IMG/VR virus record: IMGVR_UViG_3300032893_000072
Location: 1 to 49,588 of that record
DNA: 49,588 nucleotides
Strand: one strand, 5' to 3'
DNA from: a virus
Positions 6,706 through 33,868 of this stretch are shown one piece after another. A model generated the notes under the pieces. The model saw only the letters and a program-made list of their open reading frames with translations, had not been told where the DNA came from and did no database searches. How positions within the stretch are numbered: the stretch's first letter is position 1; every line of letters begins with the position of its first letter. The position numbers and the translations under genes are program-made.

Positions 6706-6803
6706 TGACAACACGGAGGAAGAAACTCGACTGGCTATGGATGCTCTGGGAACTAGGCCTGCTCGATGATGCGTGGCCACCGGAGGAGGTGGAATGTGAT
6801 TAA
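6702..6803 (+). CDS. Small tryptophan-rich protein, 33 aa
   Basis: The ATG at 6702 overlaps the TGA of the ejection gene (ATGA), and the frame ends at 6803, eight bases inside the next gene. The product (MMTTRRKKLDWLWMLWELGL and on) is basic at the N-terminus, then Trp/Leu-rich, then acidic. It is amphipathic and could attach to a membrane or pack against a virion protein. Coupling at both ends argues that it is translated. No family is recognised. A second in-frame ATG lies at 6705. Confidence 0.5.
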   Translation: MMTTRRKKLDWLWMLWELGLLDDAWPPEEVECD

Positions 6804-8922
6804 ACGACTTCTGCTCTTGTTCATTCTTTTCATCCCTTCCGTGGTATGGGCAACGGTGACAGGCCAGAATTTCAGCGTGTCCTACACTTGTTCTGGGACT
6901 ACCGGGCCATTTGCTTTCACATTTGCCATCAGTGATGCAACCGCGCTTACGGTTACGCAGAGCGGGACGGTTCTCAACTCCGGTCTCTATAACATCGTTC
7001 CTATCAACAAGAACTATATGTATGGAGGGAGCATTACGCTCAAGAAGGCATGCCCTGCCGGTCAGCCATTAGTCCTGACGCGCATTACTCCGGTCACGCA
7101 GACCACTCTCTACACCAACAACATGCCTCTGCCTATGACAACGATCATGGCGAGTCTCGACAAGTTGACGGAGATCGATCAGGAGCAATCGCAACTACTT
7201 ACCAATGCTACCTGTATTCCTGGGTACACCATGCAAAGCCTCAATCCTCTGGTATGCGTTCAGGTGGGCGGTCCAAACTCCGGCCTTCCCTTATCTGGAG
7301 GAACGATGACTGGTCCCCTTCGCGGTCCGCAAATCGGAAATGGAGTGTATGCATCTTTGATGGTTGGAGCGGATTGCGGAGCACAGGTAAACGCCGCGAT
7401 TGCATCAACTCCTACGGCTACGATCCCAATTTATGTAGATGCCTCCTGCGGAGGTAATACCGCCACGTTCTCTACTCCGGTGACGCTGGACGCTGGAAGA
7501 GTGCTTCGATTTGTCCAATATGCCAACTACACCATGAACGCCGGAATCACGCTTGGCTATGCCAGCGTTGTAGAAGGATTGCCGATTGCCTCCAATGGAG
7601 GTTCGACATCTCTAGTAGAGGGAACGGGAGCCAATTTAGCCTGTATCCTTTGCATGTCGGCTGGAAGCAACTCGGTCATTAAAGACCTTTATATTGATGG
7701 TAATAAAGCGAACAACTCTTCCGCCCTCGATGGGATTCTGGTGTCGAATGCCAATCGAGTGCATATCTACAATGTGACCGTCAACAACTCCAAGCGGGAT
7801 AACATCCATATCACGAATACGATGGTCCCCACCATCACAGCAAGCGAAAGCCTGTCTCTCAATCAACAGGTGACTTTGAATGTAACGGGAGGAGGAGTCG
7901 AACTATTTAACACCACCACTCCTGGAACCGGAACAAACTCTTATCCCGCCTGCGCCTCCAATCTTGGTGCAACCTGTACCTGGGGGACAGCGGTACTGAC
8001 TAATATCGGATCAACCTCGGACAACGTTTCGGGAGATGGTTATCTTGGTCCTAATGTGCTCATCGAAAATGCAGGAAGAGACGGGCTCTTTACCGAACGT
8101 AATGCGGATTGGATTATCGACGGACAGGTAGAGTTTGAAACCAACGGAAGGGACGGGCTCCACTGTGAAGACTGCGCCACTTACCGTATTTCAAACTCCG
8201 ATTTCGGGTTGAATCTGGCCCATGGATTGTATTCCGCAGTTGTGAATGCCCAGTGTTCCACAGGTATATTCGCTTCCGGTCATATCATTGCATCCACGCA
8301 GTTTGGGGCCAACGCTTCCGGGGACATTTACTCTACCGGAACGTCGGAATCCGGGGCAGGGTTCTGCTCTGTGGCCGGGACGGGACAGGTGGCAGGAGCC
8401 TTGACGATTACCGGAAACGCCTTCATTAGTGCTACCAGCGGTTCTCCGAATGAGGACAGCATCACTCTGGTGGATTCCGGGGGCAACACTATTGCAGGAA
8501 ATACCTTTGGATTCGTGGCCTTTTCCCTGCCCTTCCGGTATCTCGTGAACTCTTCCTTCTCCACCCTGACCGGAGCGGCCAGAGTAGGGCAGTATATCAG
8601 CGGAAACAATATGGTCGCCACTGCGGGAGGACCGATTTACTCCAGCGCCCCGTTTTCTCTGACCAACGGAATTGATTATGGATGTGTGTTCAACAGCGCG
8701 GGAAGCGAAACCTGTTATGGAAATCATGTTCAGTCCGGTGCTTTGAGTTCAACAACATTGAGCGTGGGAGGGGGAGCAACTATATCCAATACCAACGCGG
8801 TGCCGCAGATTGGAACACCTACGGTCAATCATGGAGCATGCATCAAGAATGCCGGTCCTCCGGTAGTGATCGGATATTGCTCCACAGCCCTAGATGGTTC
8901 AGGTGTCTGCACATGCAATTGA
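6796..8922 (+). CDS. Exported tail fibre/tailspike with T7-fibre N-domain and beta-helix
   Basis: The chosen GTG at 6796 follows GGAGGAGG at 6782-6789; the frame reaches 6766 without a comparable site. The N-terminus, MIKRLLLLFILFIPSVVWA, is a textbook Sec signal peptide with a likely cut after VWA. Residues of about 20-140 match the T7 tail-fibre N-terminal domain pattern, including TPVTQTT and LDKLTEIDQEQ, which attaches a fibre to the tail. The rest reads as a right-handed beta-helix with repeated short Asn/Gly turns (SVIKDLYIDGNKANNSSALD), as in spikes that bind or cut polysaccharide. About 20 cysteines occur, many close together (LHCEDC, VCTC), fitting an oxidising compartment. A signal peptide on a tail-attached fibre is highly unusual. 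Its N-domain is paralogous to that of 11593-17352. Confidence 0.85.
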   Translation: MIKRLLLLFILFIPSVVWATVTGQNFSVSYTCSGTTGPFAFTFAISDATALTVTQSGTVLNSGLYNIVPINKNYMYGGSITLKKACPAGQPLVLTRITPVTQTTLYTNNMPLPMTTIMASLDKLTEIDQEQSQLLTNATCIPGYTMQSLNPLVCVQVGGPNSGLPLSGGTMTGPLRGPQIGNGVYASLMVGADCGAQVNAAIASTPTATIPIYVDASCGGNTATFSTPVTLDAGRVLRFVQYANYTMNAGITLGYASVVEGLPIASNGGSTSLVEGTGANLACILCMSAGSNSVIKDLYIDGNKANNSSALDGILVSNANRVHIYNVTVNNSKRDNIHITNTMVPTITASESLSLNQQVTLNVTGGGVELFNTTTPGTGTNSYPACASNLGATCTWGTAVLTNIGSTSDNVSGDGYLGPNVLIENAGRDGLFTERNADWIIDGQVEFETNGRDGLHCEDCATYRISNSDFGLNLAHGLYSAVVNAQCSTGIFASGHIIASTQFGANASGDIYSTGTSESGAGFCSVAGTGQVAGALTITGNAFISATSGSPNEDSITLVDSGGNTIAGNTFGFVAFSLPFRYLVNSSFSTLTGAARVGQYISGNNMVATAGGPIYSSAPFSLTNGIDYGCVFNSAGSETCYGNHVQSGALSSTTLSVGGGATISNTNAVPQIGTPTVNHGACIKNAGPPVVIGYCSTALDGSGVCTCN

Positions 8923-10166
8923 ACACCAAGTCGGTAGCGGTGATCGACAATGGCCTGTTTTCGGAATTGGCCATAACGCTATCCCAGTCCTTTGCCAAGG
9001 TTTACTATCACTCCCCGTGGGTGGCGGACTATCCCTCCTCCTACCGTACCGAACTGGGTGAAGGATTTCCTGAATACGAGCGCATCGAGGACATCTGGGA
9101 TGTGGTGGACGATGTGGATTTGTTCGTGTTCCCTGAACTCCATCAGGGTCCGTTGCAGGAATATCTAGCGAAGCAGGGAAAGCGGGTCTGGGGATCGCGC
9201 AACGGGGAGGAACTGGAAGTTTACCGCAAGGAAGCCAAGGAATATTTCGAGTCTCTGTCCATTCCCCAGGCACCTTATAAGGTCATCACCGGCATGACGG
9301 CGCTCAGGAAGTACATCAAAAGCCGGGACAAGGACAAACTGTGGATCAAGATTTCGCTCACCCGAAGCGATACCGAGACGTTCTCGGCGGAAGGGTACGA
9401 TTCAGTCAAGAACAGGCTGGATGACTTTCAGGCACGATTCGGTCCCACATCCGAATACCGAGAGTTCATCGTGGAGGACAATCTCCCCGAAACTTTCGAC
9501 CTCGCCATTGACACGTACTCCATAGATGGTGAATACCCCTCGCGGTCGCTGCTCGGCAATGAACAGAAAGACGAAGGATACATCGGCGTCGTAAAAGAGT
9601 GGGGGCAATTTCCTCCTAAGCTCAGGGACATCTATGAGAAACTTAGCCCCGCCCTCAAGGAATTTCAATACCGCAACTTCTTTGCCGTGGAGTGCCGCAC
9701 CGGGAAGTCTGGGATGTGGCTCTCGGACCCGTGTTGCCGGGTAGGTTCGCCCGTCTTCGAGTTGGAACTCCACATGATCAAAAACCTCCCTGAAATCCTC
9801 TGGGAAGGCGCTGACGGCGTTTTGGTCGAACCCGAATACAAGGGCAGGTACGGGTTTGAAATCCTGCTCGAAAGCCAGTGGGTCAACGAGCACCCGTTGC
9901 TGGTCGAATACCCAGAAGAGTACCGCGACCAGATCAAGTTCCGCTATGCCACCCAGTTCCCCGATGGGCTTTGGATCATGCCTCAGCGACAGGGACCGGC
10001 CTTCGGTTCGGTGGTAGCCTGCGGTGACTCGATTGATGCCTGCGTGGGAGAGGTTGAGGAGATCGCCAGTCAGATCAAGGGAATACAGGTGGAGGCGTTT
10101 ACTGCTAGTGCCGACAAACTGAAGAAAAACCTCGAAGAGTTAGCAACATACGGAGTACGATTTTGA
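8913..10166 (+). CDS. ATP-grasp family ligase-like protein (PurD/GARS-like)
   Basis: The ATG at 8913 follows AGGTG by 7 bases and overlaps the spike gene by 10 bases. The 417-residue soluble protein has no signal peptide. An N-terminal alpha/beta part is followed by VWGSRNGEELEVYRKEAKEY at about 90-110, like the entry to the ATP-binding region of phosphoribosylamine-glycine ligases. LWIKISLTRSDTETFSAEG supplies the lysine and flexible loop expected of ATP-grasp enzymes. Late segments with SDPCCRVGSPVFELELH and AFGSVVACG resemble the C-terminal part of that fold. Such enzymes join a carboxylate to an amine via an acyl-phosphate. The substrate is unknown; lying among exported tail-locus genes, it may modify a virion protein or a small molecule. 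Inferred from pattern, not a search. Confidence 0.65.
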   Translation: MQLNTKSVAVIDNGLFSELAITLSQSFAKVYYHSPWVADYPSSYRTELGEGFPEYERIEDIWDVVDDVDLFVFPELHQGPLQEYLAKQGKRVWGSRNGEELEVYRKEAKEYFESLSIPQAPYKVITGMTALRKYIKSRDKDKLWIKISLTRSDTETFSAEGYDSVKNRLDDFQARFGPTSEYREFIVEDNLPETFDLAIDTYSIDGEYPSRSLLGNEQKDEGYIGVVKEWGQFPPKLRDIYEKLSPALKEFQYRNFFAVECRTGKSGMWLSDPCCRVGSPVFELELHMIKNLPEILWEGADGVLVEPEYKGRYGFEILLESQWVNEHPLLVEYPEEYRDQIKFRYATQFPDGLWIMPQRQGPAFGSVVACGDSIDACVGEVEEIASQIKGIQVEAFTASADKLKKNLEELATYGVRF

Positions 10167-10177
10167 GAGGAGTCACC

Positions 10178-10705
10178 ATGAAGAACCGTCTGCTTTTGAT
10201 TCTACTGGCGTTGTGCGCCTGTCCTTCCCTGTGGGCTGCGGGAAGCTGCACGACCACGGACGTGACCAGCAGCCAGAACGCGCAGAGCCGTATTCCCGAT
10301 GCCGAGACAGTTATCATTACCATCGTCTGTACCGCAGACGCATCGACAGGAAGCTACCCTGCGGTCACTGTGCCTCTGACGGGGTCTTACCCTTCCGGCT
10401 CGGCGCGGAATGCCTACAACCTTACCGGCTACGTGTTGTACGAGGTGGGAAGAACGCCGGGAAGCACCGCTCCGACCAACAACTACACCACGGTGATTAC
10501 CGATGCGCGGGGATTTGCTATGGACCTTGCTCTTCTGACCACCAACGGGTCTTCCACGGTGGCGCAACTGACGCCGATCTCTAGCGCCACTCTGATGCTT
10601 TATAGCTATCCGGTTGTGCGCAGTGCTTTGACTGTGCAGTTGTCCGCGAACTCGGTCAACAGCGCCGTCATCACCCTGGACCTGATTTTCCGGACGCAAC
10701 TCTAA
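10178..10705 (+). CDS. Exported small tail-locus protein, beta-rich, 175 aa
   Basis: The ATG at 10178 follows GAGAGGAG; the frame itself opens at a TTG at 10163. The signal peptide MKNRLLLILLALCACPSLWA is strong, and the mature part starts near AGSCTTTDV. The mature 155 residues are Ser/Thr/Val-rich and beta-like, with a pair of early cysteines and a segment (YVLYEVGRTPGS then TDARGFAMDLALL) that repeats the alternating pattern of fibre-tip or adaptor domains. It stands alone between the ATP-grasp gene and another exported protein, with good ribosome sites for both. Function unknown; a secreted fibre accessory is the simplest inference. Confidence 0.7.
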   Translation: MKNRLLLILLALCACPSLWAAGSCTTTDVTSSQNAQSRIPDAETVIITIVCTADASTGSYPAVTVPLTGSYPSGSARNAYNLTGYVLYEVGRTPGSTAPTNNYTTVITDARGFAMDLALLTTNGSSTVAQLTPISSATLMLYSYPVVRSALTVQLSANSVNSAVITLDLIFRTQL

Positions 10706-10714
10706 GGAGATGAA

Positions 10715-11584
10715 ATGAATCTACGCTGGTTACTGCCTTTGGTTCTTGCGGTTCCCTGCTTGGCCCAGACGCCATCTGCGGCGACCTGCGGCAATCCACA
10801 GCAACCCTATTACATGTACAATAACCACTTCTACATGTGCGCGAATGGCTCACCAACACAGTTGGATACGTCCAGTCAAACCATTACTCCAAGTCTGGTA
10901 AAGATTCCGGAAGGCACTGCTAGTGCACCGACGATTCAGGATGCAAGTGCTGCTACTACGGGAACATACCCCAAGACGGCGGGAGCATATTGGAATACGA
11001 CTATCGGCGGAACAGATATTCTTTCCGTGCATCAGTATGGAGCCTACGTAGCGGGAGCAATCGGAATCGGAACGACTACTACGCCGACTGTTTTAATGCG
11101 GTCTGGAAACGGCCTTTTGTATCTAGGGTATGCGGGTTGGACCGATGGTACTCTGGAACTTCTATCCACCATCGCTACGGATGGAACCTATAGTTCCCAA
11201 ATGACTACCGGAGTATCGGCCTGCGAAGCCAGTTTTGCAGAGACAGTTGCGCATAATGGGACAGTCACTATCCCTACCAGCCTGAATTGCCTTCCTGCCA
11301 ACTCGATCATTGATGGCATTGTCTATCGCATCACTACCACCTTGAGCGGTAATGCCATCTCCAGTTTCACTCTCGGAGTCACCGGCACAACCGCCAAGTT
11401 CTGCTCTACACAGAGCACGCTGACAGCGGGCACTACAGGCGTATGTCTGGCTCAGTGGGGAACGGCAGGTAACCAGGTAAATACCACGGCTGCTCCAGTG
11501 GTCATTACCGAGAACCAGATTGCAACTGCAGGAGCGATCAGAATCATTGTTTATTATCACAGCTTTACTCCTCCGACCTCGTAA
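10715..11584 (+). CDS. Exported fibre-like protein, 289 aa
   Basis: The start follows AAGGAGA. The N-terminus MNLRWLLPLVLAVPCLA is a probable signal peptide cleaved before QTPSAATC. A short Cys/Tyr-rich head (NPQQPYYMYNNHFYMC) precedes low-complexity Thr/Gly/Ala beta-rich sequence. From about residue 175 there is a compact domain beginning ACEASFAETVAHNGTVTIPT with regularly spaced cysteines. The C-terminal part resembles receptor-binding or trimerising tips of phage fibres in composition, but I do not recognise a named family. It may be an accessory fibre built from the same material as the 1919-residue protein next door. Confidence 0.7.
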   Translation: MNLRWLLPLVLAVPCLAQTPSAATCGNPQQPYYMYNNHFYMCANGSPTQLDTSSQTITPSLVKIPEGTASAPTIQDASAATTGTYPKTAGAYWNTTIGGTDILSVHQYGAYVAGAIGIGTTTTPTVLMRSGNGLLYLGYAGWTDGTLELLSTIATDGTYSSQMTTGVSACEASFAETVAHNGTVTIPTSLNCLPANSIIDGIVYRITTTLSGNAISSFTLGVTGTTAKFCSTQSTLTAGTTGVCLAQWGTAGNQVNTTAAPVVITENQIATAGAIRIIVYYHSFTPPTS

Positions 11585-11592
11585 GGAGATCC

Positions 11593-14500
11593 ATGAGGCG
11601 TTTCTTCATATTCACGTTCTTTCTGATGACTCTGCCTATCTGGGCGACAGTCACGACTCAGACCATCAAGGTTACATATACCTGCACGGGTAGTGCAGGG
11701 CCATTTCCCTTCTCTTTCGCCATCGGCGATCCAACCGGATTGACTGTTACTCAGAACGGGACGGTCCTGAATCCCGCCGCTTACAACGTGGTTCCCTACA
11801 ACAACAATTTCGACAAGGGAGGAAGCGTAACTCTAGTCGATCCATGTCCTTTCGGACAATCCTTGATTCTTCAGAGAAATACTCCCATCACCCAGACCAG
11901 CGTGTTTACGGACAACATGCCGATTCCCATGAACACATTCGAGAATGGCTTGGACAAATCCACCATGATCGAACAGGAATTGTCGAACAGCATTTCTTCC
12001 GTGAGTACACAATTGGCAGCGGCGACTTGTCCTTCAGGGTCTGTTCTTCAGTCTTCTACCGGACCTATCTGCGTTCCGAATGGAGGGGGTGGAGCAGTAT
12101 GTCCATCTGGACACGCTCTTCAATCGACTATCGGACCCGTATGCGTACCAGCAGGGGGAGGAAGCACCCCGTCTCCGCCTTCCTACGCTGTGCAGTTTGC
12201 CAACAATGGCGCAACGACCTTGCAGGCTGACCAGACATTTACCGTCAATCCCACGACTCACAACGTGAATGGAAACCTGAATGGAGTTGTCAACGCAACG
12301 GGGATGACCTCTCCGATGGTCCCCGCTCCCTATAGTCATCTATGCCATGGAACCATTTCAAATGGTTCCAGCATTCTGACCATGACTGACTGTGCTTTCC
12401 CTTCGCCTATGGTCAATTACGTCGCGCGCGTTGGAGACAGCGGCAATGGTGAATTGAATGTCGGACTCTCCTATCTCTCTCCAACTACAGCTACCATGAG
12501 CAGTCCTGCAACATGGACAAGCAACAACACGATCATCTCTGCTTCGATAAACAACGGAGGAACGGGATGCAATGTCGGGGACACGATGGGGATAAGCGGC
12601 GGAATCGGCAAACAGGCAATTGCCCAGGTCAACGCCACAAACGGAAGCGGGGTAGCCACAAGTGTTTTTTTGGTCAGCGGAGGGGGAGGATACTCCAGCG
12701 CGACCGGGGTGACTACGGTTGCTGCCGGTGCTCGACCTGCAACCTGTTCCGGGGTCACGCTGAATACTTCGACATCGCTTCTCCCTGAAATTGTGTATTT
12801 CGGTCCCGACAATTGCACACAGGCCAATGCATGGTTCAATTCAATTAAGTCCGTGGGTCGGGGCATTCTACCTCCCGGTTATTACCTTTCCTCCTGCCCT
12901 ATCCTGAATGATCAGAACACGGGCTTCATCATGGAAGGCACGTCGATGACGAACACCTGGATCATCGATGCAACCCCTTCCAGTCATGCGGATTTCGTGC
13001 GCGTCGGAGCATCCGGGTCAGGAAATCTTAACATCTCGCAGGTCAACAACATCACCATCATGGGCAACGGTCAGGTGACGCGGGGAGCGTTAACCGATGT
13101 GGAACCCGCCAACGCAGAGATCAACAATGTCAGCGTCCCTGAGTCTGGAGCGGCAGCATTCTACTTCGATAACGGTGTAGGCGCGACTTTCACCAATCTT
13201 GTTTCGCAGGGCACTTACGAGCGTATCTCGCAGCCCGTCAATTGCATCGTCAATGCGGCTCCAGGGCCTACGGTATTCGTTTCTCCAGTATGCGAGAACT
13301 TCAGCGGATACGTCGTGGAATGGCTGGGCTCAGGGCAGATCGTTCAGGGGCAACTCGATCTTTCCACGACAGGAATTGTGCATGTAGCGCAGGGCGCATA
13401 CCTTGATTTGAATGGTTTGGATATATGTGAAATCTGGACTTGCACTCTTGAAAACAAAATTGAAGGAGTGTTCAGAAACAGTTCCGGTTTGAATGTAGTC
13501 GATGCGAAGCCCGGTAGCGTGCTCCAGTCCTCGAATACGGATATAAGAACTGTCACGGCGGAATCGGGATCAGCGGTTGCGATGGGCAATATCCGTGCAG
13601 AGCCTGCCGCGTTCGACGATCAGGCTGGGATGTGGATTGAAGGGCCGATTGTCAGCCTATCGGGTAGCGATTCTACCCACCAGCGTCAAATCACGTATGG
13701 TCCTGTGACCCAGCATTCTTACGGCGGGAGTGGTGGTCACGGAGAGGTTCAGACCAACAGCGGGTCCCTGACGTTTGGTGGCGGCTGCGATTCATTTGGC
13801 TCTGCTGCCTGCTACGTGAATTACCTTTCCTATCAGCAATACCCGCTTTCTTCTGCATGGAAGGTGTCTTTTGCCGGTCAATGGAATGACAACAGCGTTG
13901 CATTCAACACCTCCTGCTCTTATACCTCTCCGACATTTGTGGTTAACGGAGGCACTGTAACGTGCATACAAAGTCCCATCACGTTCACGAACAATAATGG
14001 GCAGACGATTCGCACTGGCCAAATCATTGCCTATATCCCTTCGGCTTACGTGAATTTCATATCGTTCATTGGCGGCGTCTGGTCGGTTTATCCCGATGGC
14101 CAGAATGTTTTATATGACTATGCAAAACTGAACCTGCCCGCCATCACCACGCCGCTGTGGGATTGTTCCACTGCTGCATGCACGCTGAAAGGCGGTGCTG
14201 CCTATGCTCCGCTTACCATGGAGAGCTTAGGCGGAAACTTTATCGTGAAGGACACCACCGACGATACCGAATTTCAAATGCAGGCATATCACGGTCAGGG
14301 AACGTATCTGTATACGAATGCAACAAATAACGGCAATCTTTTCGTGATGCCGGGTCATCAATACAGCATGGAGTTCCATGGGTTGAATACATGGATAGGG
14401 GCCAACAATCATGCCAGTACCGGGAACTGCACATCGTTCGTATGTCTTGGCCCAGCCGCATTTACGATGGATGCCGATGGTACGATGCAGATGGGCCTGC

Positions 14501-17352
14501 TGACATCATCGAAACTGTTAGGGCTTGATGCTTCTCATAATGTTGCCAGCTACACTCTGACTGGTTCGGGTCCGATTGTTGCAACACCAGGAACAAATAC
14601 GATTGATTTCTCCTGTCCTTCCTGCTGGACGGGAAGCAACACAATCACAGGGCCGGGAACCAGCGGGTACATTCCGAAATGGACAGGCACGACAACACAG
14701 GGGAACTCTCTGCTTGATTACGGTCTGACGCATACCAGCGCATTCAACTTTGGCGCTCCTGTCTACATGGGGAATATGGTTGCCAGCGGCACCGTTCAAT
14801 TCAGCGGTTTGACGGGAGTGGGAACGGCAGGACGTGTTCTGGCCGACTCGGCAGGCAATCTTTCCATTGCTTCTCCGGCAGTGGGTGTCGATACCATCAA
14901 TGGCTCGGCGGGAGCGTTTACCTTCAGCTTCGGGTCTGGAGCGGGAAGTTGTTCAGGAACAACCTGCACCTTTACTGGATCGGGATCGGGCGGAGGGTCT
15001 GTTACCAATTTCATTGCGAATACCTCAGATTGGCCTTCATGGTTGGTTCCTACGGTTAATACATCATCGACAACACCTACTCTGTTAGTTTCAGCAAGCG
15101 CGATCCCCAATTCCGCCATCCAGAATGTTTCGACAACCGTAAGCGGAGCGACGTGCACTCTGGGATCGAGTTGCAGCCCGACCATTGATGCTGCTCATGG
15201 CGGAACGAATATTGATACTCATACTTCTACAGGTGTTGCTCAGGTCAGTTCCGGTACATGGTCTGTTGGCTCATTAGCTCTTACGTCACTGGCGGCTCAG
15301 GCGGCGGATACGGTCTTGACCAATGCTACCAGCGGGTCTGCTGCTCCTACAGCCTTTGCCATGCCATCCTGCACGGGATACAAGATGAGTCTCTACGACA
15401 CAGCCTCTCATGCATGGGTATGCAAAACGCCTGCCGTGCTGACCACGGCGACCAGCGGCGGTGCCGCAGCGGGGACAACCTATGATGGATCAACCGCAAG
15501 AACATTTGATTACAGCTCCTTCGGGGCATCGCCTCTGGCGGGATCAGCAAGCTTGGTTACGACCGGAACGATCACCAGCGGCACATGGCATGGTACGGCT
15601 ATCGGGTCGCAGTATGGAGGGACAGGGCAGAACTGGAGCGCGTCTTCGGGAGTTCCTGAATATGCATCGGGAGCGGCGTCACTGTTTAATGCAACCTGCA
15701 ACGGGTCAGGAAGCGCCCTGAACTATACGGCTGGTGGAACTCTCGGCTGCAACTCATCCATCGCGGCGGCTACGGCTACCAGCGCAACCACAGCAGGAAC
15801 CGCGACACTGGCCACGACAGCCACAACCGCAAATAGCATTGCGGGTTCCCCTGTCATCAATCAGTTCTGGGGATATAACGGGACATCGCAGGGATGGTAT
15901 GTTCCATCCGGGAATGGGACAGTCAACAGCGGCACAGCCAATCATCTCGCCATCTACGCTTCGTCCACGAACGCCGTGAGCAACGATTCCACGTTAACCG
16001 ATGATGGGACCACGCTTGCCTATACCGGAACGTCTGGACTGGCGGTTCCTATCGTAACCACCAATGGCACTACAAACGGGGCATGGGGTCCAATCAGTGT
16101 CGGAGTTCTTCCAAGTGCCGAAACCACCAACCAGGTTTTGTTGACTGTCCCCAATTCGGTGACGCATTACACAATGATCCTTCCCGGCGTTCAGCCAACA
16201 TCAGGAAACACCTATCTTTCCTGTAGTGCTGCGAACCCAGCCATATGCTCATGGGCGGCAGGAGGGGCGGGTGGAGGAAACAACCTTACCGCCAACAGCA
16301 GTGGTGGCGCTGCTCCGGGGTCAACCTACAACGGATCAGCGGCAGTAACATTCGACTACCACTCGTTCGGTGCTGCGCCTCTTGCAAGTCCTACATTTTC
16401 AGGAACGGTGACAGTTCCCAATTTCGCGCTGACGACCAAGATGAATGTGACCACGACCACGGTTGCGGCACTTCCAAGCGTAGGTAATACGACTTACGAT
16501 CTCCGCCCGGTAAGCGATGCCTCGGTTGCAGGGGATGCGGGATGTATTACCGGAGGCGGAACGGTTTACCAGTGGTGCTACTGGAATGGTTCGATCTGGA
16601 AGTCGACAGGAGGAAGCGCAAGTATCACCTATCCGGGTGCTGGCGTGGTTGTCTCGACAGGCAGCGCATGGGGAACATCCCTGACGCAGCCAACCGGGGC
16701 GCTTGTGGGAGCGGGCCAAGCCAATACATGGACAACCGGATTGCAGGACTTCAGCGCGGCAACAATGAAGCTACCCGCATCGGTTACGGTGGGATCGAAC
16801 TCGATTACGCTTCCTTCATCGGCGGGTACGGTTGCCCTGACGAGCCAGGTTCCGGCACTGGTAGCAGCAGGTGGAGGGGCGGGAATCAACGCATACAATG
16901 CCGGTACTGCCGTTACGTCCTCGCGCTCCGACCACACGCATCGCCAGCGTCAGACCTTGACATGGTACTTCCCCGGAACACCATCGACAGGCGTACAGAA
17001 CCTCATTATGAACGCACCGATGGGGATCACCAATGCGGCTATCACAGATATGGAAGTATCGATGGGAACAGGCAGCAGCAGCGGAAACAGCACCTTCAAC
17101 ATCCAGCGATGCACCGGCTCCTGCGGTGGTTCCTCGGCTACCTTCGCCAACATCTATGCGACCGGTCTGGTCATCGGAACTGTGACCACGACAACCAACA
17201 GATCAGGCTCCTGCTCTGTGGCGGGAACATGCGGTGCTCTCACCAGCACCATCACCACCGGCGATCAGTTCAAGGTGAATCTGGTTGGGATTGGAACCTC
17301 GGTAGCGGATGTGACTGTGACCATGACGTATGTAAGTGAGACAACCAATTGA
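11593..17352 (+). CDS. Giant exported tail fibre (1919 aa) with T7-fibre N-domain
   Basis: This is the longest gene in the window. The start follows AAGGAGAT, and MRRFFIFTFFLMTLPIWA is a clear signal peptide. Residues of about 19-140 are the second copy of the T7-fibre-type attachment domain (TYTCTGSAGPFPFSFAIGD, then TPITQTSVFTDNMPIP), paralogous to the spike at 6796. A beta-helix-like region with pectate-lyase-type turns covers roughly 395-720. A long Gly/Ser/Thr shaft follows, with a duplicated unit near residues 1287 and 1569 (TYDGSTARTFDY versus TYNGSAAVTFDY). The last 160 residues after SRSDHTHRQRQTLTWYFPG form a distinct tip. Many short-range cysteine pairs (SCPSCW, CTLGSSC) suggest disulfides. 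It probably recognises the host surface; how an exported chain joins a virion is unexplained. Confidence 0.85.
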   Translation: MRRFFIFTFFLMTLPIWATVTTQTIKVTYTCTGSAGPFPFSFAIGDPTGLTVTQNGTVLNPAAYNVVPYNNNFDKGGSVTLVDPCPFGQSLILQRNTPITQTSVFTDNMPIPMNTFENGLDKSTMIEQELSNSISSVSTQLAAATCPSGSVLQSSTGPICVPNGGGGAVCPSGHALQSTIGPVCVPAGGGSTPSPPSYAVQFANNGATTLQADQTFTVNPTTHNVNGNLNGVVNATGMTSPMVPAPYSHLCHGTISNGSSILTMTDCAFPSPMVNYVARVGDSGNGELNVGLSYLSPTTATMSSPATWTSNNTIISASINNGGTGCNVGDTMGISGGIGKQAIAQVNATNGSGVATSVFLVSGGGGYSSATGVTTVAAGARPATCSGVTLNTSTSLLPEIVYFGPDNCTQANAWFNSIKSVGRGILPPGYYLSSCPILNDQNTGFIMEGTSMTNTWIIDATPSSHADFVRVGASGSGNLNISQVNNITIMGNGQVTRGALTDVEPANAEINNVSVPESGAAAFYFDNGVGATFTNLVSQGTYERISQPVNCIVNAAPGPTVFVSPVCENFSGYVVEWLGSGQIVQGQLDLSTTGIVHVAQGAYLDLNGLDICEIWTCTLENKIEGVFRNSSGLNVVDAKPGSVLQSSNTDIRTVTAESGSAVAMGNIRAEPAAFDDQAGMWIEGPIVSLSGSDSTHQRQITYGPVTQHSYGGSGGHGEVQTNSGSLTFGGGCDSFGSAACYVNYLSYQQYPLSSAWKVSFAGQWNDNSVAFNTSCSYTSPTFVVNGGTVTCIQSPITFTNNNGQTIRTGQIIAYIPSAYVNFISFIGGVWSVYPDGQNVLYDYAKLNLPAITTPLWDCSTAACTLKGGAAYAPLTMESLGGNFIVKDTTDDTEFQMQAYHGQGTYLYTNATNNGNLFVMPGHQYSMEFHGLNTWIGANNHASTGNCTSFVCLGPAAFTMDADGTMQMGLLTSSKLLGLDASHNVASYTLTGSGPIVATPGTNTIDFSCPSCWTGSNTITGPGTSGYIPKWTGTTTQGNSLLDYGLTHTSAFNFGAPVYMGNMVASGTVQFSGLTGVGTAGRVLADSAGNLSIASPAVGVDTINGSAGAFTFSFGSGAGSCSGTTCTFTGSGSGGGSVTNFIANTSDWPSWLVPTVNTSSTTPTLLVSASAIPNSAIQNVSTTVSGATCTLGSSCSPTIDAAHGGTNIDTHTSTGVAQVSSGTWSVGSLALTSLAAQAADTVLTNATSGSAAPTAFAMPSCTGYKMSLYDTASHAWVCKTPAVLTTATSGGAAAGTTYDGSTARTFDYSSFGASPLAGSASLVTTGTITSGTWHGTAIGSQYGGTGQNWSASSGVPEYASGAASLFNATCNGSGSALNYTAGGTLGCNSSIAAATATSATTAGTATLATTATTANSIAGSPVINQFWGYNGTSQGWYVPSGNGTVNSGTANHLAIYASSTNAVSNDSTLTDDGTTLAYTGTSGLAVPIVTTNGTTNGAWGPISVGVLPSAETTNQVLLTVPNSVTHYTMILPGVQPTSGNTYLSCSAANPAICSWAAGGAGGGNNLTANSSGGAAPGSTYNGSAAVTFDYHSFGAAPLASPTFSGTVTVPNFALTTKMNVTTTTVAALPSVGNTTYDLRPVSDASVAGDAGCITGGGTVYQWCYWNGSIWKSTGGSASITYPGAGVVVSTGSAWGTSLTQPTGALVGAGQANTWTTGLQDFSAATMKLPASVTVGSNSITLPSSAGTVALTSQVPALVAAGGGAGINAYNAGTAVTSSRSDHTHRQRQTLTWYFPGTPSTGVQNLIMNAPMGITNAAITDMEVSMGTGSSSGNSTFNIQRCTGSCGGSSATFANIYATGLVIGTVTTTTNRSGSCSVAGTCGALTSTITTGDQFKVNLVGIGTSVADVTVTMTYVSETTN

Positions 17353-18044
17353 GGAAACTGATCTCCATTTCGATCCTTATAGTATCGACTCCGATCTGGG
17401 CCAACAACGTCTTCCTTCACGATACGGCATCGAAGGTGTCGATGGGAGCAAGTTATCTCGTCAAGGATGCCAACACGACGCAGGGAGCGAGCGCGCAGAC
17501 CGCGATCACGGCAACCATTGCCGGTCCTGTCCCTGCCGGATACTGGCCTGTCGCAACAGCGAGTGTGAACATTACGAAGACCAGCGGAGGGACCAAGACG
17601 GTATGGCTCTCTGATCCTCTGTCGGCAGGGTTCACCATCTCGGGTACAGTAACAGCGCATCTCTGGGGTCTGGAATCGGCATCGGCGGCAAATGCCGGAT
17701 ACTCTTTCAACGTATACCGATGGGCTGCGTCGTGTGGCTGCGTCGTATCGGCGTTGAGTGCTTCAGCTTCCGGAGCATCGGCGGAATGGACAACATCGTC
17801 GGCGGTCAATGCCACGCCTCCTACCATCACGGCAACGAGTACGAACTTTGTGACCGGGGATCGGCTGTTCATCGTCATCTTCAACATCGATGCCGGGGGG
17901 ACGCAGACCGCTTCCAGCCGGACCATGACCGTGAACTATAACGGCGCCACGGGAGTGAGCGGAGACTCCTACATCACCTTTGGTCAGACGCTGACCTTTG
18001 TATCTGATTTCAATAATCAGCCAGCGCGTGGGGTGTCGCAATGA
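17349..18044 (+). CDS. Exported beta-sandwich-like protein, 231 aa
   Basis: Translation probably starts at the TTG at 17349, overlapping the giant fibre stop (TTGA). The resulting N-terminus MRKLISISILIVSTPIWA is a good signal peptide, cut before NNVFLHD. The mature protein is Ser/Thr/Ala-rich and beta-like with few charges, and contains CGCVV and VWLSDPLSAGF. Strict coupling to the fibre gene suggests it is made in proportion to the fibre, as a tip, chaperone or cap. No enzyme motif is visible. The weak start codon and weak ribosome site make it dependent on upstream translation. Confidence 0.7.
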   Translation: MRKLISISILIVSTPIWANNVFLHDTASKVSMGASYLVKDANTTQGASAQTAITATIAGPVPAGYWPVATASVNITKTSGGTKTVWLSDPLSAGFTISGTVTAHLWGLESASAANAGYSFNVYRWAASCGCVVSALSASASGASAEWTTSSAVNATPPTITATSTNFVTGDRLFIVIFNIDAGGTQTASSRTMTVNYNGATGVSGDSYITFGQTLTFVSDFNNQPARGVSQ

Positions 18045-18085
18045 GAGCCGCACCGTGGAATCCGGAAGGCTGGGCGATTAAATGA
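18041..18085 (+). CDS. 14-codon coupling mini-ORF
   Basis: An ATG overlapping the previous stop (ATGA at 18041-18044) opens a frame of 14 codons, MRAAPWNPEGWAIK, whose TGA overlaps the next ATG (ATGA at 18082-18085). The next gene has only a weak ribosome site (GGAAGG). This little frame may carry terminating ribosomes from one exported protein to the next rather than make a useful peptide. Confidence 0.35.
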   Translation: MRAAPWNPEGWAIK

Positions 18086-20145
18086 AAAAGATTCGCTTGT
18101 TGTTTCTTCTTTTCGCGCTTCCAGGATCGGCCCAGAACTGGTCCTCGTTTCTCGATACCTCGCGGGCTATTGACTGGAGTGAAGCAGGATTCACGATCCC
18201 GAACTACACGGTGAATTGTTCGACCCAGCCCTCGCTCGCGACGGGATCGGGCAATGCTTCGGCCAACGCGACCGCCATTCAGAATGCTCTCAACTCCTGC
18301 GACTCGACCCACAACGTAGTGAACATCCCGGCTGGAACCTACTATGTGGCGGGATTCAACTACGGCACCCAAGGCAAACAGGTACTTCGTGGAGCGGGTC
18401 CGAACTCTACCCGCCTTTACATTACAACCGCGGTCGGATGCGGAGGATTCGGCGGCGGCATCTGCATGTTGAGCAACCCGACCCTCTACGGAGCAAGCAG
18501 CGAAGTCATTCCTCCCAGCGGCTCGAATCAGTGTATGTGGACGGCAGGGTTTTCCAAGGGAACCACTTCCATTACCTTGTCCAGTTGCGGCGGGACTCCA
18601 CCCGTCAACAAGACCATCATCCTTGACCAGAAAAACGATACCAGCGATACAGGAGGAGTCTATATCTGTGATGACCTGACTGACGGCTGCACCCTCGAAG
18701 CGGGGCCGGGAGACAACAATGGACGGGTTATCGGAGGAGTCACTTACTCCCAGCAACAGGTGGCGTATGTGACTGGAGTCACTTCGCTTGGCGGGGGTTC
18801 CTACACCGTCACCATCTCACCCGGAGTGATGTTCAACAACGTCCGCATAGGGCAGACTCCCGGTGCGTGGTGGCCGGGTTTTGTGCAGAATGATGGTCTG
18901 GAAAACATCACGGTGGATTACAGCAACAGCAGTTCGGGAACCACCGATTTCAATGCTGTCTTCATGTTCAACTGCTACCAGTGCTGGATGAAGAACGTCC
19001 GCTCCATCGATGCCGCCAGAACCCATGCAGAAATCTTCCAGAGCGGGAATGACGTGATCCGGGACAGCTACTTCTATCAGGCCCGCGACCATGCCGCCGA
19101 AAGCTATACCATCGAACTCGATCAGACCTCCGGAACCCTGATTGAAAACAACATTTTTCAGCAGAGCACCATCCCTATTGCGGGGATGACCACCTCGGGG
19201 AGCGTCATCGACTACAACTTCACCATCGACAATCTCTACACTGGGTCTACCGGGTACATCAACGCCCCTTACTACAACCACAACGCAGGCTCCAACGTGA
19301 ACCTCTGGGAAGGAAACAACACCACCGGCATCTGGGCCGATGCTATTCACGGATCGAGCGTCAATGGAACCTTGTATCGGAACTCCATGAATGGATGGTC
19401 GCAAGGGAACACCAACGAGACCGTTCCCCTCATCATGCGGAGTTACATTCGTGGAATGAACATGATAGGGAACGTGATGGGCCAGCCTTCCTATCACAAT
19501 CAATACCAGACCTACGCCACATCGAACAGCGGAGGCATTGGAGGCGGAGCAGAGTATACCAGCATCTACAGCCTAGGATGGGCCAGCGGTGCGCCATTCT
19601 GCGGAACAGGCGGGTCGGCATCCCCGTACTGCGATGCCAAGGTATTCACAACCCTGATGCGCTGGGGAAACTATGACACGGTAACCAACGGCGTGAAGTG
19701 GGATTCAACCGAAGCCTCTCCGGGAGCGGCGACGTATCTCAATGCGAACTTCTCCTCTTCCTATTTCGGTTCGCTGGCACATACACTGCCTGCCTCACTC
19801 CTTTACAACTCAACGCCTTCATGGTGGCCGAGCGGCAAAGCATGGCCTCCTATCGGTCCGGATGTGTCGACCGGAAATGTCGGGATATGCACAGGAACCT
19901 ATGCCGGGGCGCAGGCAACACAAGCAAGTCAGTGTACAGGCGGAACGCTCACAACCGCATGGGCTTCGCATATCAGCTCCATCCCTGCCCAGGACTGCTT
20001 TCTGACGACCATGGGCGGCAATCCTGCCGGGACAGGCAGTTCGCTCAGTTTCGATGCCTCTGCCTGTTACTCCTCAACCCCCACAGTACCTACCGCGCAC
20101 CTTACCGGGGCGCAAGTGATATCAGGAACAGGAGGATTCAAGTGA
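18082..20145 (+). CDS. Exported right-handed beta-helix (pectate-lyase-fold) protein
   Basis: 687 residues. MKKIRLLFLLFALPGSA is a signal peptide, with the mature chain starting QNWSSFLDTSRAIDWSEAG. The following region (NATAIQNALNSCDS then VVNIPAGTYYVAGF) is the usual entry of pectate-lyase-3-type beta-helices, followed by coils such as LENITVDYSNSSSG, NVRSIDAARTHAEIF and DVIRDSYFYQ. The fold is common in polysaccharide lyases, glycosidases and tailspikes. No T7-type attachment domain is present, so unlike the two fibres it may be a free secreted depolymerase. From memory the opening resembles exported proteins of Acidobacteriota, which hints at host acquisition. Cysteines are numerous. Substrate unknown. 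Confidence 0.8.
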   Translation: MKKIRLLFLLFALPGSAQNWSSFLDTSRAIDWSEAGFTIPNYTVNCSTQPSLATGSGNASANATAIQNALNSCDSTHNVVNIPAGTYYVAGFNYGTQGKQVLRGAGPNSTRLYITTAVGCGGFGGGICMLSNPTLYGASSEVIPPSGSNQCMWTAGFSKGTTSITLSSCGGTPPVNKTIILDQKNDTSDTGGVYICDDLTDGCTLEAGPGDNNGRVIGGVTYSQQQVAYVTGVTSLGGGSYTVTISPGVMFNNVRIGQTPGAWWPGFVQNDGLENITVDYSNSSSGTTDFNAVFMFNCYQCWMKNVRSIDAARTHAEIFQSGNDVIRDSYFYQARDHAAESYTIELDQTSGTLIENNIFQQSTIPIAGMTTSGSVIDYNFTIDNLYTGSTGYINAPYYNHNAGSNVNLWEGNNTTGIWADAIHGSSVNGTLYRNSMNGWSQGNTNETVPLIMRSYIRGMNMIGNVMGQPSYHNQYQTYATSNSGGIGGGAEYTSIYSLGWASGAPFCGTGGSASPYCDAKVFTTLMRWGNYDTVTNGVKWDSTEASPGAATYLNANFSSSYFGSLAHTLPASLLYNSTPSWWPSGKAWPPIGPDVSTGNVGICTGTYAGAQATQASQCTGGTLTTAWASHISSIPAQDCFLTTMGGNPAGTGSSLSFDASACYSSTPTVPTAHLTGAQVISGTGGFK

Positions 20146-20537
20146 TTCGATATGCCGTGATTTTATGTTGTCTTTGCTCAGTTTCATTTGCGCAGACCGT
20201 TACCCTCCCACCGGGGTCGGCGGGGGCGACAGGTGTCAAACTGACATGGACTCTGCCTATTACCTGCACCACGTCCAATCCATGCACAGAGCGTCCTTAC
20301 CGGATTCTTGGCGTCTGCCCAAGCCCGCTCACAGGAACCTCGGGATGGACGGTACTCACAGATTCCGCATCGCAGGCTACCACCGTGACGGACTCAACTA
20401 TCACGTCTGGATTGCAGTATAGTTATGTGGTTGAAACGCAGCAGGGGGGATTGAACTCCGGACCATCGAACTGCATCTCGGTGACGGTCCCAAACGTCCC
20501 AAGCCCTGCCACTGGCCTTGCGGGTGTTACGCAGTAA
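20142..20537 (+). CDS. Exported single fibronectin-III-like domain protein
   Basis: The GTG at 20142 sits 6-7 bases after AGGAGG and overlaps the previous stop (GTGA). The product is MIRYAVILCCLCSVSFA, a signal peptide, then about 115 residues with an FN3-like pattern: VKLTWTLPITC, YRILGVCPSP, a linker with TVTDSTITSGLQYSYVVET, and SGPSNCISVTVPNV. Four mature cysteines could form two disulfides. FN3-type domains are common carbohydrate-binding or spacer modules on phage surfaces and secreted enzymes. It ends the exported-gene block, and the lysis genes begin 100 bases later. Confidence 0.75.
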   Translation: MIRYAVILCCLCSVSFAQTVTLPPGSAGATGVKLTWTLPITCTTSNPCTERPYRILGVCPSPLTGTSGWTVLTDSASQATTVTDSTITSGLQYSYVVETQQGGLNSGPSNCISVTVPNVPSPATGLAGVTQ

Positions 20538-21031: not shown

Positions 21032-21145
21032 ATGGGAATGCCTCCCGGAAACAATCCTTTACCGCCTCCCGGACAGAAACCCAAGCCCCAGCCTGAGCCC
21101 TGCACACCGCAGCCGCCCGCAGAACCCGCCAAGGATGATCTATGA
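21032..21145 (+). CDS. Proline-rich 37-aa peptide
   Basis: The ATG at 21032 is preceded by a near-perfect ribosome site (TAAGGAG, 7 bases), and the TGA overlaps the next ATG (ATGA). The product is almost one third proline, with a single cysteine (PEPCTPQPPAEP). No fold is expected. Small proline-rich proteins in lysis cassettes include outer-membrane spanin lipoproteins, but no signal sequence or lipobox is seen here, so that role is not supported. Excellent translation signals make it a real gene. Confidence 0.6.
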   Translation: MGMPPGNNPLPPPGQKPKPQPEPCTPQPPAEPAKDDL

Positions 21146-21348
21146 ACCTGAAAGACATTCCCAATCCGTTCTGGGCGTCTATCTTCATCCTGATTGCGTG
21201 TCTTCTGGCAGTGGTGGCCCTGATGGTCAAGGACAAGACTGATACCACAGCCGTGATTACCATGGCTTCCAGCATTATCACCGGAGCCTTTGGATACATT
21301 CAGGGCGTCAAGGATGGTAGCGCCAAACCCCCACAACCCAACCCATAG
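21142..21348 (+). CDS. Putative holin, two transmembrane segments
   Basis: 68 residues. After a short polar head (MNLKDIPNPF) there are two hydrophobic segments, WASIFILIACLLAVVALMV and TAVITMASSIITGAFGYIQG, joined by a charged turn (KDKTDT), and a polar tail ending KPPQPNP. Small two-span proteins between a coiled-coil membrane protein and an endolysin are typical class II holins, which open the inner membrane at the end of infection. It is coupled to the proline-rich peptide by ATGA. The sequence family is not certain, but topology and place are strong. Confidence 0.7.
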   Translation: MNLKDIPNPFWASIFILIACLLAVVALMVKDKTDTTAVITMASSIITGAFGYIQGVKDGSAKPPQPNP

Positions 21349-21361
21349 AAAGTGAGAACCT

Positions 21362-21832
21362 GTGAAGAAGATCATTGCAAGCATTACGGCGTTTGTTCTG
21401 GCGCTGACGCTGACCGCATGCCCAAGCCAGAACACGCTGGCCGCACTGGTAACCGTAGTCGGCAATGCCGCTGCGTCCGTGGCTTCCATCGAGGGCAATT
21501 CGCCGCTTTCGCAAAAGCTGAGTACGGATACGGCTGCGCTGTCCAAAGCTGTCGCCCAATGGAAACCCGGAACCAACGCACAAATGGCGATTGAGGCCGC
21601 GCAGTTGGTCGAAGATGACCTTAACCTGTTTCCGCAGGTAAGCCCGTATGCGCCTCTGATTTCTCTGGCTCTGAGCACGGTTATCAGTATCATCCAGATT
21701 CTCAACCCGTCGCCAAGTCCGCAGATAACACACACCGTCTCCAGTGCTCCTAAGACGGCGGCTGAGTTCAAGGCGCGGTGGAACACAATTGCCCTGAGCA
21801 ATGCACAGACGGCTAACGCGGCAATCAAGTAG
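21362..21832 (+). CDS. Lipoprotein of the lysis cassette
   Basis: The GTG at 21362 gives MKKIIASITAFVLALTLTAC, a signal peptide ending in a lipobox (LTAC), so the mature protein should be acylated at Cys20. The remaining 136 residues are helical and Ala/Ser-rich, with a moderately hydrophobic stretch (YAPLISLALSTVISIIQIL) near 95-115. It could act as an outer-membrane component of a spanin-type system, but it is longer than usual o-spanins and not embedded in another gene, so the role is open. It has a weak ribosome site (AAGTGAG). Confidence 0.65.
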   Translation: MKKIIASITAFVLALTLTACPSQNTLAALVTVVGNAAASVASIEGNSPLSQKLSTDTAALSKAVAQWKPGTNAQMAIEAAQLVEDDLNLFPQVSPYAPLISLALSTVISIIQILNPSPSPQITHTVSSAPKTAAEFKARWNTIALSNAQTANAAIK

Positions 21833-22478: not shown

Positions 22479-22612
22479 TTGGTATCTCTCTCGGCAATCC
22501 ACTGCTTCGCAAATTTAACAGCTTGCCGATGTTGTGCCTCCTCTCCTATGAACGGATGGAAAAAGCCCCACCAGAATGCTTTCCAGTGCCAACGAAATGG
22601 TATCTGGCTCAT
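22466..22612 (-). CDS. 48-aa tryptophan/aromatic-rich protein, last of the minus arm
   Basis: The ATG at 22612 is preceded by GAGAGGTGAGTGA, an initiation region also used by two other genes of this arm. The product (MSQIPFRWHWKAFWWGFFHP, then a helical polar half ending AERDTKEQP) has an aromatic, basic N-terminal half that could contact membrane or nucleic acid. It begins right after the stop of the VRR-NUC gene and ends in the convergent terminator. No family recognised. Confidence 0.6.
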   Translation of the reverse strand: MSQIPFRWHWKAFWWGFFHPFIGEEAQHRQAVKFAKQWIAERDTKEQP

Positions 22613-22951
22613 TCACTCACCTCTCCAATAGGCTGGTAATAGGCTGGTTACGTCCTCAAGCGATCTGGCGACGATGTACCTGTGGCCATGATCTTCGACT
22701 TGCTTCTGAAAGGACTTCTGGAGTTCCGACTGGATTCCCTTGGGAGCCTTGACCTCGATCCAATAGACACAAAACGCTCCAGGGAACGCCAGAATATCCG
22801 CCATCCCCGGCACACCCGCCTTGATGAATCGCTTTCCATCTGCCGTGGGCATTGCCAGTACATTCATCCGATAGGCAAGTATCCCCTTGGCCTGAAGCCA
22901 GTCCATGATGGCCTTCAGAGTCTGCGCCTCTGTCGTCTTGGTGGGGTTCAT
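22613..22951 (-). CDS. VRR-NUC family nuclease
   Basis: 112 residues from the ATG at 22951, which overlaps the preceding stop (ATGA) and follows GGAG. The chain shows the stand-alone phage VRR-NUC pattern: an early Glu helix (TEAQTLKAIMDWLQAKG), GVPGMADILAF with the metal-binding Asp near 52, WIEVKAP with the ExK pair at about 66-68, and a trailing SELQKSFQKQVEDHGHRY. These are compact PD-(D/E)xK enzymes that act on branched or flapped DNA. In this arm it pairs with the annealing protein as a recombination or replication-repair function. Confidence 0.85.
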   Translation of the reverse strand: MNPTKTTEAQTLKAIMDWLQAKGILAYRMNVLAMPTADGKRFIKAGVPGMADILAFPGAFCVYWIEVKAPKGIQSELQKSFQKQVEDHGHRYIVARSLEDVTSLLPAYWRGE

Positions 22952-23880: not shown

Positions 23881-24014
23881 TTGCTCTCCCCTCCCGTCCG
23901 CGTGTTCCATGCTTTAACTGCGTACTTTTTCGTGCTCTTGGGTGGACCTCCGCTAGCAGCATCAACAGCGGAAACCCAACGTTCTTCGAGCATGTATCGT
24001 TGTATCGTCGTCAT
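23877..24014 (-). CDS. 45-aa basic protein
   Basis: The ATG at 24014 is preceded by GGAGAGAGGTGAGTGA. The product (MTTIQRYMLEERWVSAVDAA, then GGPPKSTKKYAVKAWNTRTG) is helical then basic. It is coupled to the next gene through GTGA. No family recognised, but the initiation signals and overlap make it real. Confidence 0.6.
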   Translation of the reverse strand: MTTIQRYMLEERWVSAVDAASGGPPKSTKKYAVKAWNTRTGGESK

Positions 24015-24029
24015 TCACTCACCTCTCTC

Positions 24030-24242
24030 CTAGTAACCGTAGGTGCTTCCCGGCTTTCCATCGCAGCCGCACCATTTGCCCTTCACTTCAGCAAGGCTCT
24101 GCGCATAGTCAGCACGGGCGTGGTCACACATTGGCGAGTGGTCTTCACAATGAGTCCAGCCGGGTCGGCCATTGGCATCCTTTGCCCCGTCCTGATGCAC
24201 CTCACGCTTACAGAACGAACAAATACACATTCCCCAACTCAT
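24030..24242 (-). CDS. Cys/His-rich small protein
   Basis: 70 residues with CICSFCKREVH at the start, WTHCEDHSPMCDHARADY in the middle and KWCGCDGKPGS at the end. Seven cysteines and several histidines suggest one or two zinc sites of the zinc-ribbon or treble-clef type. The start region again carries GAGAGGTGAGTGA. It follows the HNH gene by 13 bases. Possibly a nucleic-acid-binding or protein-interaction module. Confidence 0.6.
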   Translation of the reverse strand: MSWGMCICSFCKREVHQDGAKDANGRPGWTHCEDHSPMCDHARADYAQSLAEVKGKWCGCDGKPGSTYGY

Positions 24243-24255
24243 TCACTCACCTCTC

Positions 24256-25698: not shown

Positions 25699-26297
25699 TT
25701 GCTCACCTTAATCGTCATCAATTCCTCATAAGCCACTGCGTTTTCTGAGATATACAGTTCCCCGATGATGTCCTCTGCCGCCTTCCGTCCACAGCCCTCA
25801 AGAGCCTCGCACATCTCAATGGCTTCCTCCAGCTTGCTCTTGACGCTAAGGTGCTGGTCTGGATGGTCTAGTGCGGTTTCAGCAAGGAACTCCCGGTAAG
25901 GCTTGGTCTTGGCTGACTCGATGACCTTCCTGTCCCGCCGTACTTGCGGAGAGAGCTTCTTGATCGTCTCCACGTTGCACCGCTTCATGTCCCTGAGATC
26001 GTCCATGGGCACGTCAGGGAGTAGTTCCTTGACTGTCCGCATGGCCGCGTAGCAGTCCGACCACGAGTTGGGAGCGATGCGCTTGATCCACTGTCCCATC
26101 GACTCGGCACGGTCCCTCCAGAGTCCCCGCTCCTCGATAATCAGCAAGGCCATCCCGCGAGCAGCGAACACCTGTTTTTCTGCCTTATCCAGAGCGCCCA
26201 GGATACCCGCCACGGCGTCGGCAGCCTGTTCCTGACCCATCACCCTTATCGCCAGCCAGTCAGGCGCTAGAAGCCGATATTGCGATATTGCAGTCAT
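25695..26297 (-). CDS. Unknown 200-aa helical protein, possible DNA-binding
   Basis: The product is almost wholly helical and soluble. An Ala-rich N-terminal half with GQEQAADAVAGILGALDKAE is followed by SMGQWIKRIAPNSWSDCYAA, which has the rhythm of a helix-turn-helix. Later segments (DDLRDMKRCNVETIKKLSP, then KTKPYREFLAETALDHPDQH) resemble ParB-like or replication-accessory proteins of phages, but no family is certain. Codons for LRDMKRCNVE are the target of a perfect 32-base complementary stretch in the intergenic RNA candidate at 33718-33868. A degenerate copy of the palindromic element lies at 26280-26293, just inside the start. Confidence 0.65.
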   Translation of the reverse strand: MTAISQYRLLAPDWLAIRVMGQEQAADAVAGILGALDKAEKQVFAARGMALLIIEERGLWRDRAESMGQWIKRIAPNSWSDCYAAMRTVKELLPDVPMDDLRDMKRCNVETIKKLSPQVRRDRKVIESAKTKPYREFLAETALDHPDQHLSVKSKLEEAIEMCEALEGCGRKAAEDIIGELYISENAVAYEELMTIKVSK

Positions 26298-33717: not shown

Positions 33718-33868
33718 ATGCGTGGTCTCGTATACGCATCCCACGTCTGATGTTGCGTAATCAGACCCGGTTTACCAGACCGGACGCTTGCGGCGTCATG
33801 GAGTGAAACACCGCAAAGTCAATCTCAGGGACATGAAGCGGTGCAACGTGGAGTCACGGCTGCACCGC
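33718..33868 (-). ncRNA. Hairpin array with 32-nt perfect antisense to a gene of the same arm
   Basis: Five consecutive hairpins fill the gap between two minus-strand genes: ATGCGT/ACGCAT (33718-33739); GTCTGAT/ATCAGAC (33745-33766); CCGGT/ACCGG (33767-33783); GACGC/GCGTC (33783-33797); and GCGGTGCA/TGCACCGC (33838-33868) with an inner CGTG/CACG. The last overlaps the end of gene 33854-34108. Plus-strand bases 33822-33853 equal the coding (minus) strand of 25968-25999. An RNA from the minus strand here would therefore be perfectly complementary, over 32 nt, to the mRNA of gene 25695-26297. A regulatory antisense RNA is a reasonable inference. Confidence 0.4.

Follow-up and report, generated by a model that had tools for sequence, protein, structure and literature searches.

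The window considered here is a complete IMG/VR virus record of 49,588 bp, with a 127-bp repeat at its ends as expected from a circular assembly. Its genes are arranged as in a T7-type podovirus: terminase at 37.2 kb, a portal-type head-tail adaptor at 39.2 kb, the capsid protein at 42.6 kb, tail-tube proteins at 45.0 and 45.7 kb, and internal virion proteins at 0.9-6.7 kb, followed by a block of fibre and spike genes and then by a lysis region that includes the endolysin gene (22.0 kb). The fibre genes thus come after the internal virion proteins, as in T7-type podoviruses. At the DNA level, megablast finds no isolate phage that matches the first 25 kb. A 32-nt perfect inverted repeat has its arms at 25968-25999 and 33822-33853, 7.8 kb apart, and a repeated motif, CATTCACTCACCTCTC (22600-22625, 24002-24027 and 24230-24255), is possibly a phage regulatory site.

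The block holds eight genes (Table 1), and Pfam at E 0.01 names none of their products. Seven begin with a Sec-type signal peptide, as the original prediction had it, with starts in frame and scores of 6.6-14.9 on a home-made scale. The eighth, the ATP-grasp-like gene, has no signal and is the sole cytoplasmic gene of the block; it is matched by no PHROG or Pfam family, and it is 58-76% identical across the phages with signals and present in about 80 diverse viral contigs. Searching with peptide patterns from the whole 6796 protein finds no relatives, while its N-terminal domain alone retrieves them; a homologue search with the 17349 protein returned none.

Table 1. Features of the fibre and spike block (SP, signal peptide; scores from the home-made scorer)
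Feature	Position	Strand	Details
SP MIKRLLLLFILFIPSVVWA of fibre 1	6796..6852	+	GTG start; score 13.0; Shine-Dalgarno match of 6
Fibre 1, mature part	6853..8922	+	689 aa, 20 Cys
T7-type tail-attachment domain, fibre 1	6853..7188	+	phrog_1640; tail-bound fibres matched by PDB profile and by fold
Cys pair of fibre 1 attachment domain	codons 6889-6891 and 7051-7053	+	alignment
ATP-grasp-like protein, no SP	8913..10166	+	417 aa; weak PurD profile match, E 7e-5; 80 viral loci
SP MKNRLLLILLALCACPSLWA of second exported module	10178..10237	+	ATG start; score 14.4; SP in all homologues from viral contigs
Exported beta protein, invariant Cys pair	10238..10705	+	155 aa
SP MNLRWLLPLVLAVPCLA of 10715 protein	10715..10765	+	ATG start; score 10.3; SP-bearing homologue in L014
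10715 protein, mature part	10766..11584	+	272 aa, 6 Cys
SP MRRFFIFTFFLMTLPIWA of fibre 2	11593..11646	+	ATG start; score 7.5; 5/2000 shuffles as high
Fibre 2, mature part	11647..17352	+	1901 aa, 42 Cys
T7-type tail-attachment domain, fibre 2	11647..11979	+	
Exported 231-aa protein; SP MRKLISISILIVSTPIWA at 17349-17402	17349..18044	+	mature 213 aa, 2 Cys
Exported spike-like protein, 687 aa; SP MKKIRLLFLLFALPGSA at 18082-18132	18082..20145	+	ATG start; score 12.0; mature 670 aa, 16 Cys
Exported 131-aa protein; SP MIRYAVILCCLCSVSFA at 20142-20192	20142..20537	+	GTG start; score 9.7; 4 mature Cys

Signal peptides in the block and in related phages

The score is built from the n-, h- and c-regions and is not that of a standard predictor such as SignalP; six signal peptides of E. 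coli, used for calibration, reach 9.6-14.1. All seven N-termini have a short basic n-region, a hydrophobic h-region and small residues at -3 and -1, the weakest being that of the 17349 protein (score 6.6, TTG start). Among spurious open reading frames, 20/574 (3.5%) score at least 6.5, and when each N-terminus is shuffled 2000 times, 0-21 of the shuffles score as high as the real sequence. No gene for terminase, portal, capsid, tail tube or internal virion proteins scores above 3.0; the remaining high scores in the record belong to a hydrophobic protein of 87 aa (38928) and to lysis-type genes at 20814, 21142 and 21362.

Among relatives the signal region evolves faster than the mature domain (33% versus 55% mean identity) and yet keeps its character, as expected of selected signals, and the cut-site regions are conserved, nearly all ending in A. 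A Shine-Dalgarno-like match lies upstream of each of the seven starts. Starts placed after the hydrophobic stretch were considered and are ruled out by these start-site matches and by the retention of a diverging signal in relatives. There is little doubt that the seven proteins carry real export signals; their translocation and cleavage are inferred from sequence.

A search with the internal virion protein finds four relatives at 53-65% identity, in which the block genes begin with signals wherever the contigs extend far enough, and a search with the attachment domain finds more. The ATP-grasp-like neighbour (80 loci) served as an anchor that avoids selecting for signals. In the anchored phages whose fibre has a signal, signals occur in 30/39 of the downstream block genes and in 0/60 of the upstream genes, whereas the downstream count is 0/10 in five phages that share the neighbour and the attachment domain but have a signal-less fibre.

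The only attachment-domain copy found by searching genome contigs lacks a signal and lies in Anaerovibrio, so the host of the record is unidentified. A two-membrane host is inferred from the length of the signals and from the lipobox protein at 21362 in the lysis region. This protein (21362-21832, lipobox LTLTAC) and a small membrane protein (21142-21348) adjoin the endolysin gene and are likely to be an outer spanin and a holin, a pair that points to a host with two membranes.

The attachment domain and its cysteine pair

Two of the exported proteins, encoded at 6796 and 11593, had been described as fibres with a T7-fibre-type attachment domain directly after the signal, which profile and fold matches bear out. 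The domain is an N-terminal beta domain with a following helix, homologous to the N-domain of gp17 by profile and fold. PHROG 1640 matches 41/42 of the attachment domains; Pfam PF03906 matches 15/42, and the first copy of the window is not among these. A PDB profile search reaches the Carin-1 fibre family at E 9e-21, and the fold matches are 9efk, 8ck1 and 7boz; the homologues from the Carin-1, LME-1 and T7 fibres come from solved tail complexes. The AlphaFold model of the domain is of moderate quality (mean pLDDT 76). Similarity among the fibres is mostly confined to the first 130-200 aa, and the distal part is variable.

A comparison of 52 distinct attachment domains, 24 with a signal and 28 without (10 of the latter from isolates, L022 included among the 28), ties the signal to a pair of cysteines: the pair stands at matching places in 24/24 signal-bearing domains and in 0/28 signal-less ones. 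In two signal-bearing members the second cysteine is shifted by two positions but retained. The lowest signal score among the 24 is 6.3 (L055), and a near relative, L171, scores 7.5. The ten isolate fibres, from named phages of Vibrio, Pelagibacter, Alteromonas, Burkholderia, Yersinia and others, have no signal and start at the domain.

The original prediction had proposed phylogenetics of the domain as a check, and the tree does show the signal to be common to related phages: the 24 signal-bearing sequences form one clade (support 100/99), with the signal-less, cysteine-less domain of L022 nested inside. The tree therefore needs two changes, the simplest account being a gain and a loss of the signal, and each time the cysteines change with it. 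Fisher's test of the link gives p = 2e-15, a value that ignores relatedness and cannot be read literally; a fair count is of two concordant changes, so that the link rests on few independent events.

The fibres of T7-type phages share with those of the window the domain, by profile and predicted fold, and the gene order, but begin at the domain and have neither signal nor cysteine pair. Signal-less homologues begin M-TV, M-TI or similar and signal-bearing ones read ...A|TVT, so that the predicted cut coincides with the position of the initiator Met and the exported mature protein would be laid out like a cytoplasmic fibre. Fifteen related records have one attachment domain each, signal-bearing in 14 (the exception is L022); the window has two copies, both with signals, and no other attachment-domain gene.

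The exception follows the same rule gene by gene. In L022 (region L022:9983-14412) the attachment domain belongs to a 357-aa protein with no signal and zero cysteines, and the next genes encode a signal-bearing spike of 1119 aa with 20 cysteines and a signal-bearing protein of 699 aa with 15. Apart from the odd count of 15 these genes obey the rule, and the arrangement may be read as a cysteine-free cytoplasmic adaptor combined with exported spikes.

The second exported module, at 10178, is conserved at 45-64% in relatives from viral contigs, all with a signal and an invariant cysteine pair, as are all nine aligned representatives; two members gain two further cysteines together. In L007, L009 and L017 the module heads longer fibre-like proteins. 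In its model (mean pLDDT 68) C4 and C31 lie on strands 3-12 and 24-32 and could be partners in an antiparallel hairpin, which is only suggestive. A fold search with the module found nothing at E 0.001 or below. A signal-less homologue that keeps only the second cysteine occurs at 2444-2869 of L147 (Methanosarcina virus MetMV), an archaeal tailed virus.

Cysteine parity

Exported bacterial proteins favour even cysteine counts, which is thought to limit wrong disulfides, according to a published account (PMC7678975, citing Dutton et al. 2008). Such a bias is an accepted indicator of disulfide formation during folding in the periplasm. Counts were made on the complete genes of this phage group, using the mature part of exported proteins. 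Of the exported mature proteins, 35 have an even count and 5 an odd one (p = 1.4e-6); for the non-exported proteins the numbers are 35 and 37 (p = 0.91). When the exported set, which includes a few lysis lipoproteins, is collapsed to 37 homologous families, 33 are even and 4 odd (p = 1.1e-6). Cysteine content per 100 residues is 1.85 in exported and 0.63 in non-exported proteins.

All seven exported proteins of the window have even counts (20, 2, 6, 42, 2, 16 and 4). Clustered cysteines had been noted before, about 20 of them in the 6796 protein; its mature part has exactly 20, the capsid protein has one, and the motifs LHCEDC, SCPSCW and CTLGSSC are all present in the translations. The bias is regarded as the strongest single argument for folding outside the cytoplasm, because the signal scorer ignores the mature part. 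Disulfide-bonded folding outside the cytoplasm is highly probable, the periplasm being the inferred site; the earlier reading of these proteins as exported and disulfide-bonded finds support in the kept signals, the co-occurrence of the cysteine pair, the match of N-termini and the parity bias.

Fate of the exported fibres

In the standard model, tailed phages complete every virion part in the reducing cytoplasm. The best explanation of the block, held with moderate confidence, is that a T7-type podovirus exports its fibres and spikes through Sec, that these fold with disulfides in the periplasm, and that they are attached to tails at or after lysis. The block would then comprise the receptor-binding genes, with fibre and spike proteins as Sec substrates. 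These would pass the Sec channel unfolded, and signal peptidase would cleave at A|TVT..., recreating the N-terminus that signal-less T7-type fibres have after the initiator Met; folding and cysteine pairing would take place in the periplasm of a two-membrane host. Heads and tails would be assembled in the cytoplasm, and the fibres would dock onto the tail by way of the conserved attachment domain once the envelope breaks at lysis. The features from which the model starts are observed: signals that are present and conserved, a cysteine pair that goes with them, the parity bias, and a mature domain homologous to fibres bound to virions. That the signals are cleaved, that folding is periplasmic and that the fibres attach at lysis or later is inferred, with no experiment behind it. 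It is the simplest model, because these phages would otherwise be without a T7-type fibre. That the exported fibres become virion parts is likely, though likewise inferred, with no virion or proteome data. That a group of tailed dsDNA phages builds its receptor-binding apparatus outside the cytoplasm and adds it only at lysis to particles made in the cytoplasm can be put slightly above an even chance. Against the model, neither the route of the fibres to the tails at lysis nor the benefit has been demonstrated, and four exported families have odd cysteine counts.

The original prediction left three outcomes unranked: assembly outside the cytoplasm with attachment at lysis, secreted decoys, and adhesion that precedes release. 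Maturation in the periplasm, followed by attachment at lysis or later, is now favoured over decoys, and incorporation into virions remains undemonstrated. As secreted or periplasmic decoys the fibres would not be virion parts; they would coat or block receptors of the infected cell and of its debris, either to exclude superinfecting phages or to free progeny from the debris, much as the T5 lipoprotein Llp does by another route. Such a role is possible but unlikely; it accords with genuine export signals and with the several signal-bearing proteins per genome seen among relatives. Llp, an exported protein known to block a receptor, shares with the fibres, as do similar proteins, that it is phage-coded, exported and linked to receptor use; it is, however, a small lipoprotein, not a fibre, and has no tail-attachment domain. 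A decoy does not need that domain, and a conserved N-domain with a divergent remainder is the pattern of receptor-binding proteins. In 14/15 related records the signal-bearing protein is the sole carrier of the domain, so that decoys would leave virions without T7-type fibres (no second attachment-domain gene is found in these, though a fibre of unknown type is not excluded), and in L022 the adaptor is separate, cytoplasmic and cysteine-free beside exported spikes; both points favour periplasmic maturation.

It is also conceivable, if very improbable, that the signals are used but not cleaved, and that the N-terminal helix anchors the fibres in the inner membrane, where virions acquire them or dock. 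A hydrophobic N-terminal helix is compatible with this, and inovirus coat proteins are assembled at the membrane; but the cut-site regions are conserved, the predicted mature N-terminus is that of the signal-less homologues, and the end of the attachment domain would be held at the membrane. Scarcely credible is the reading in which the hydrophobic N-termini are no export signals but arose by chance or serve assembly in the cytoplasm, with the proteins folding there. Spurious frames do score as high at times, but not in seven genes of eight, with signals kept in relatives despite their divergence, a parity bias confined to exported genes and a cysteine pair that occurs only with a signal.

Some known systems resemble this one in part. 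Inovirus coat and receptor-binding proteins are signal-bearing virion proteins exported before joining the virion; they differ in being unrelated proteins of phages that are not tailed, inserted in the membrane as subunits and extruded without lysis. Fibreless T4 particles can be completed in vitro, and so can P22 heads by the tailspike, so by analogy late addition of fibres to finished particles would be chemically feasible. The nearest case in the literature is that of Porphyromonas gingivalis phages, which have several genes with signals adapted to the signal peptidase of the host; five of unknown function are reported, not identified as tail fibres and with no cysteine link (PMC10367356). 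The statement that no similar system is known agrees with literature searches on signal peptides of tail fibres or tail proteins, which found no described case (most subscription papers and bioRxiv preprints lay outside their scope); a search on fibres, disulfides and the periplasm likewise found none.

If the fibres do mature in the periplasm, assembly takes place in two compartments and is completed only at lysis or later, and the phage depends on Sec, signal peptidase and disulfide-forming enzymes of its host. Fibres as long as 1900 residues, with 42 cysteines and braced by disulfides, would be possible, and the question arises of fibre exchange between phages within one lysate. A signal combined with even cysteines gives a sequence rule for finding such phages. 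Export of fibre-like proteins may be wider than the attachment-domain clade. Large signal-bearing fibre-like proteins with unrelated N-termini occur in L094, L108, L117 and L120; cysteines are few or absent in those of L117 and L120 and in one from L108, and several of the proteins in these records expose Gln after the cut, like Bacteroidota substrates.
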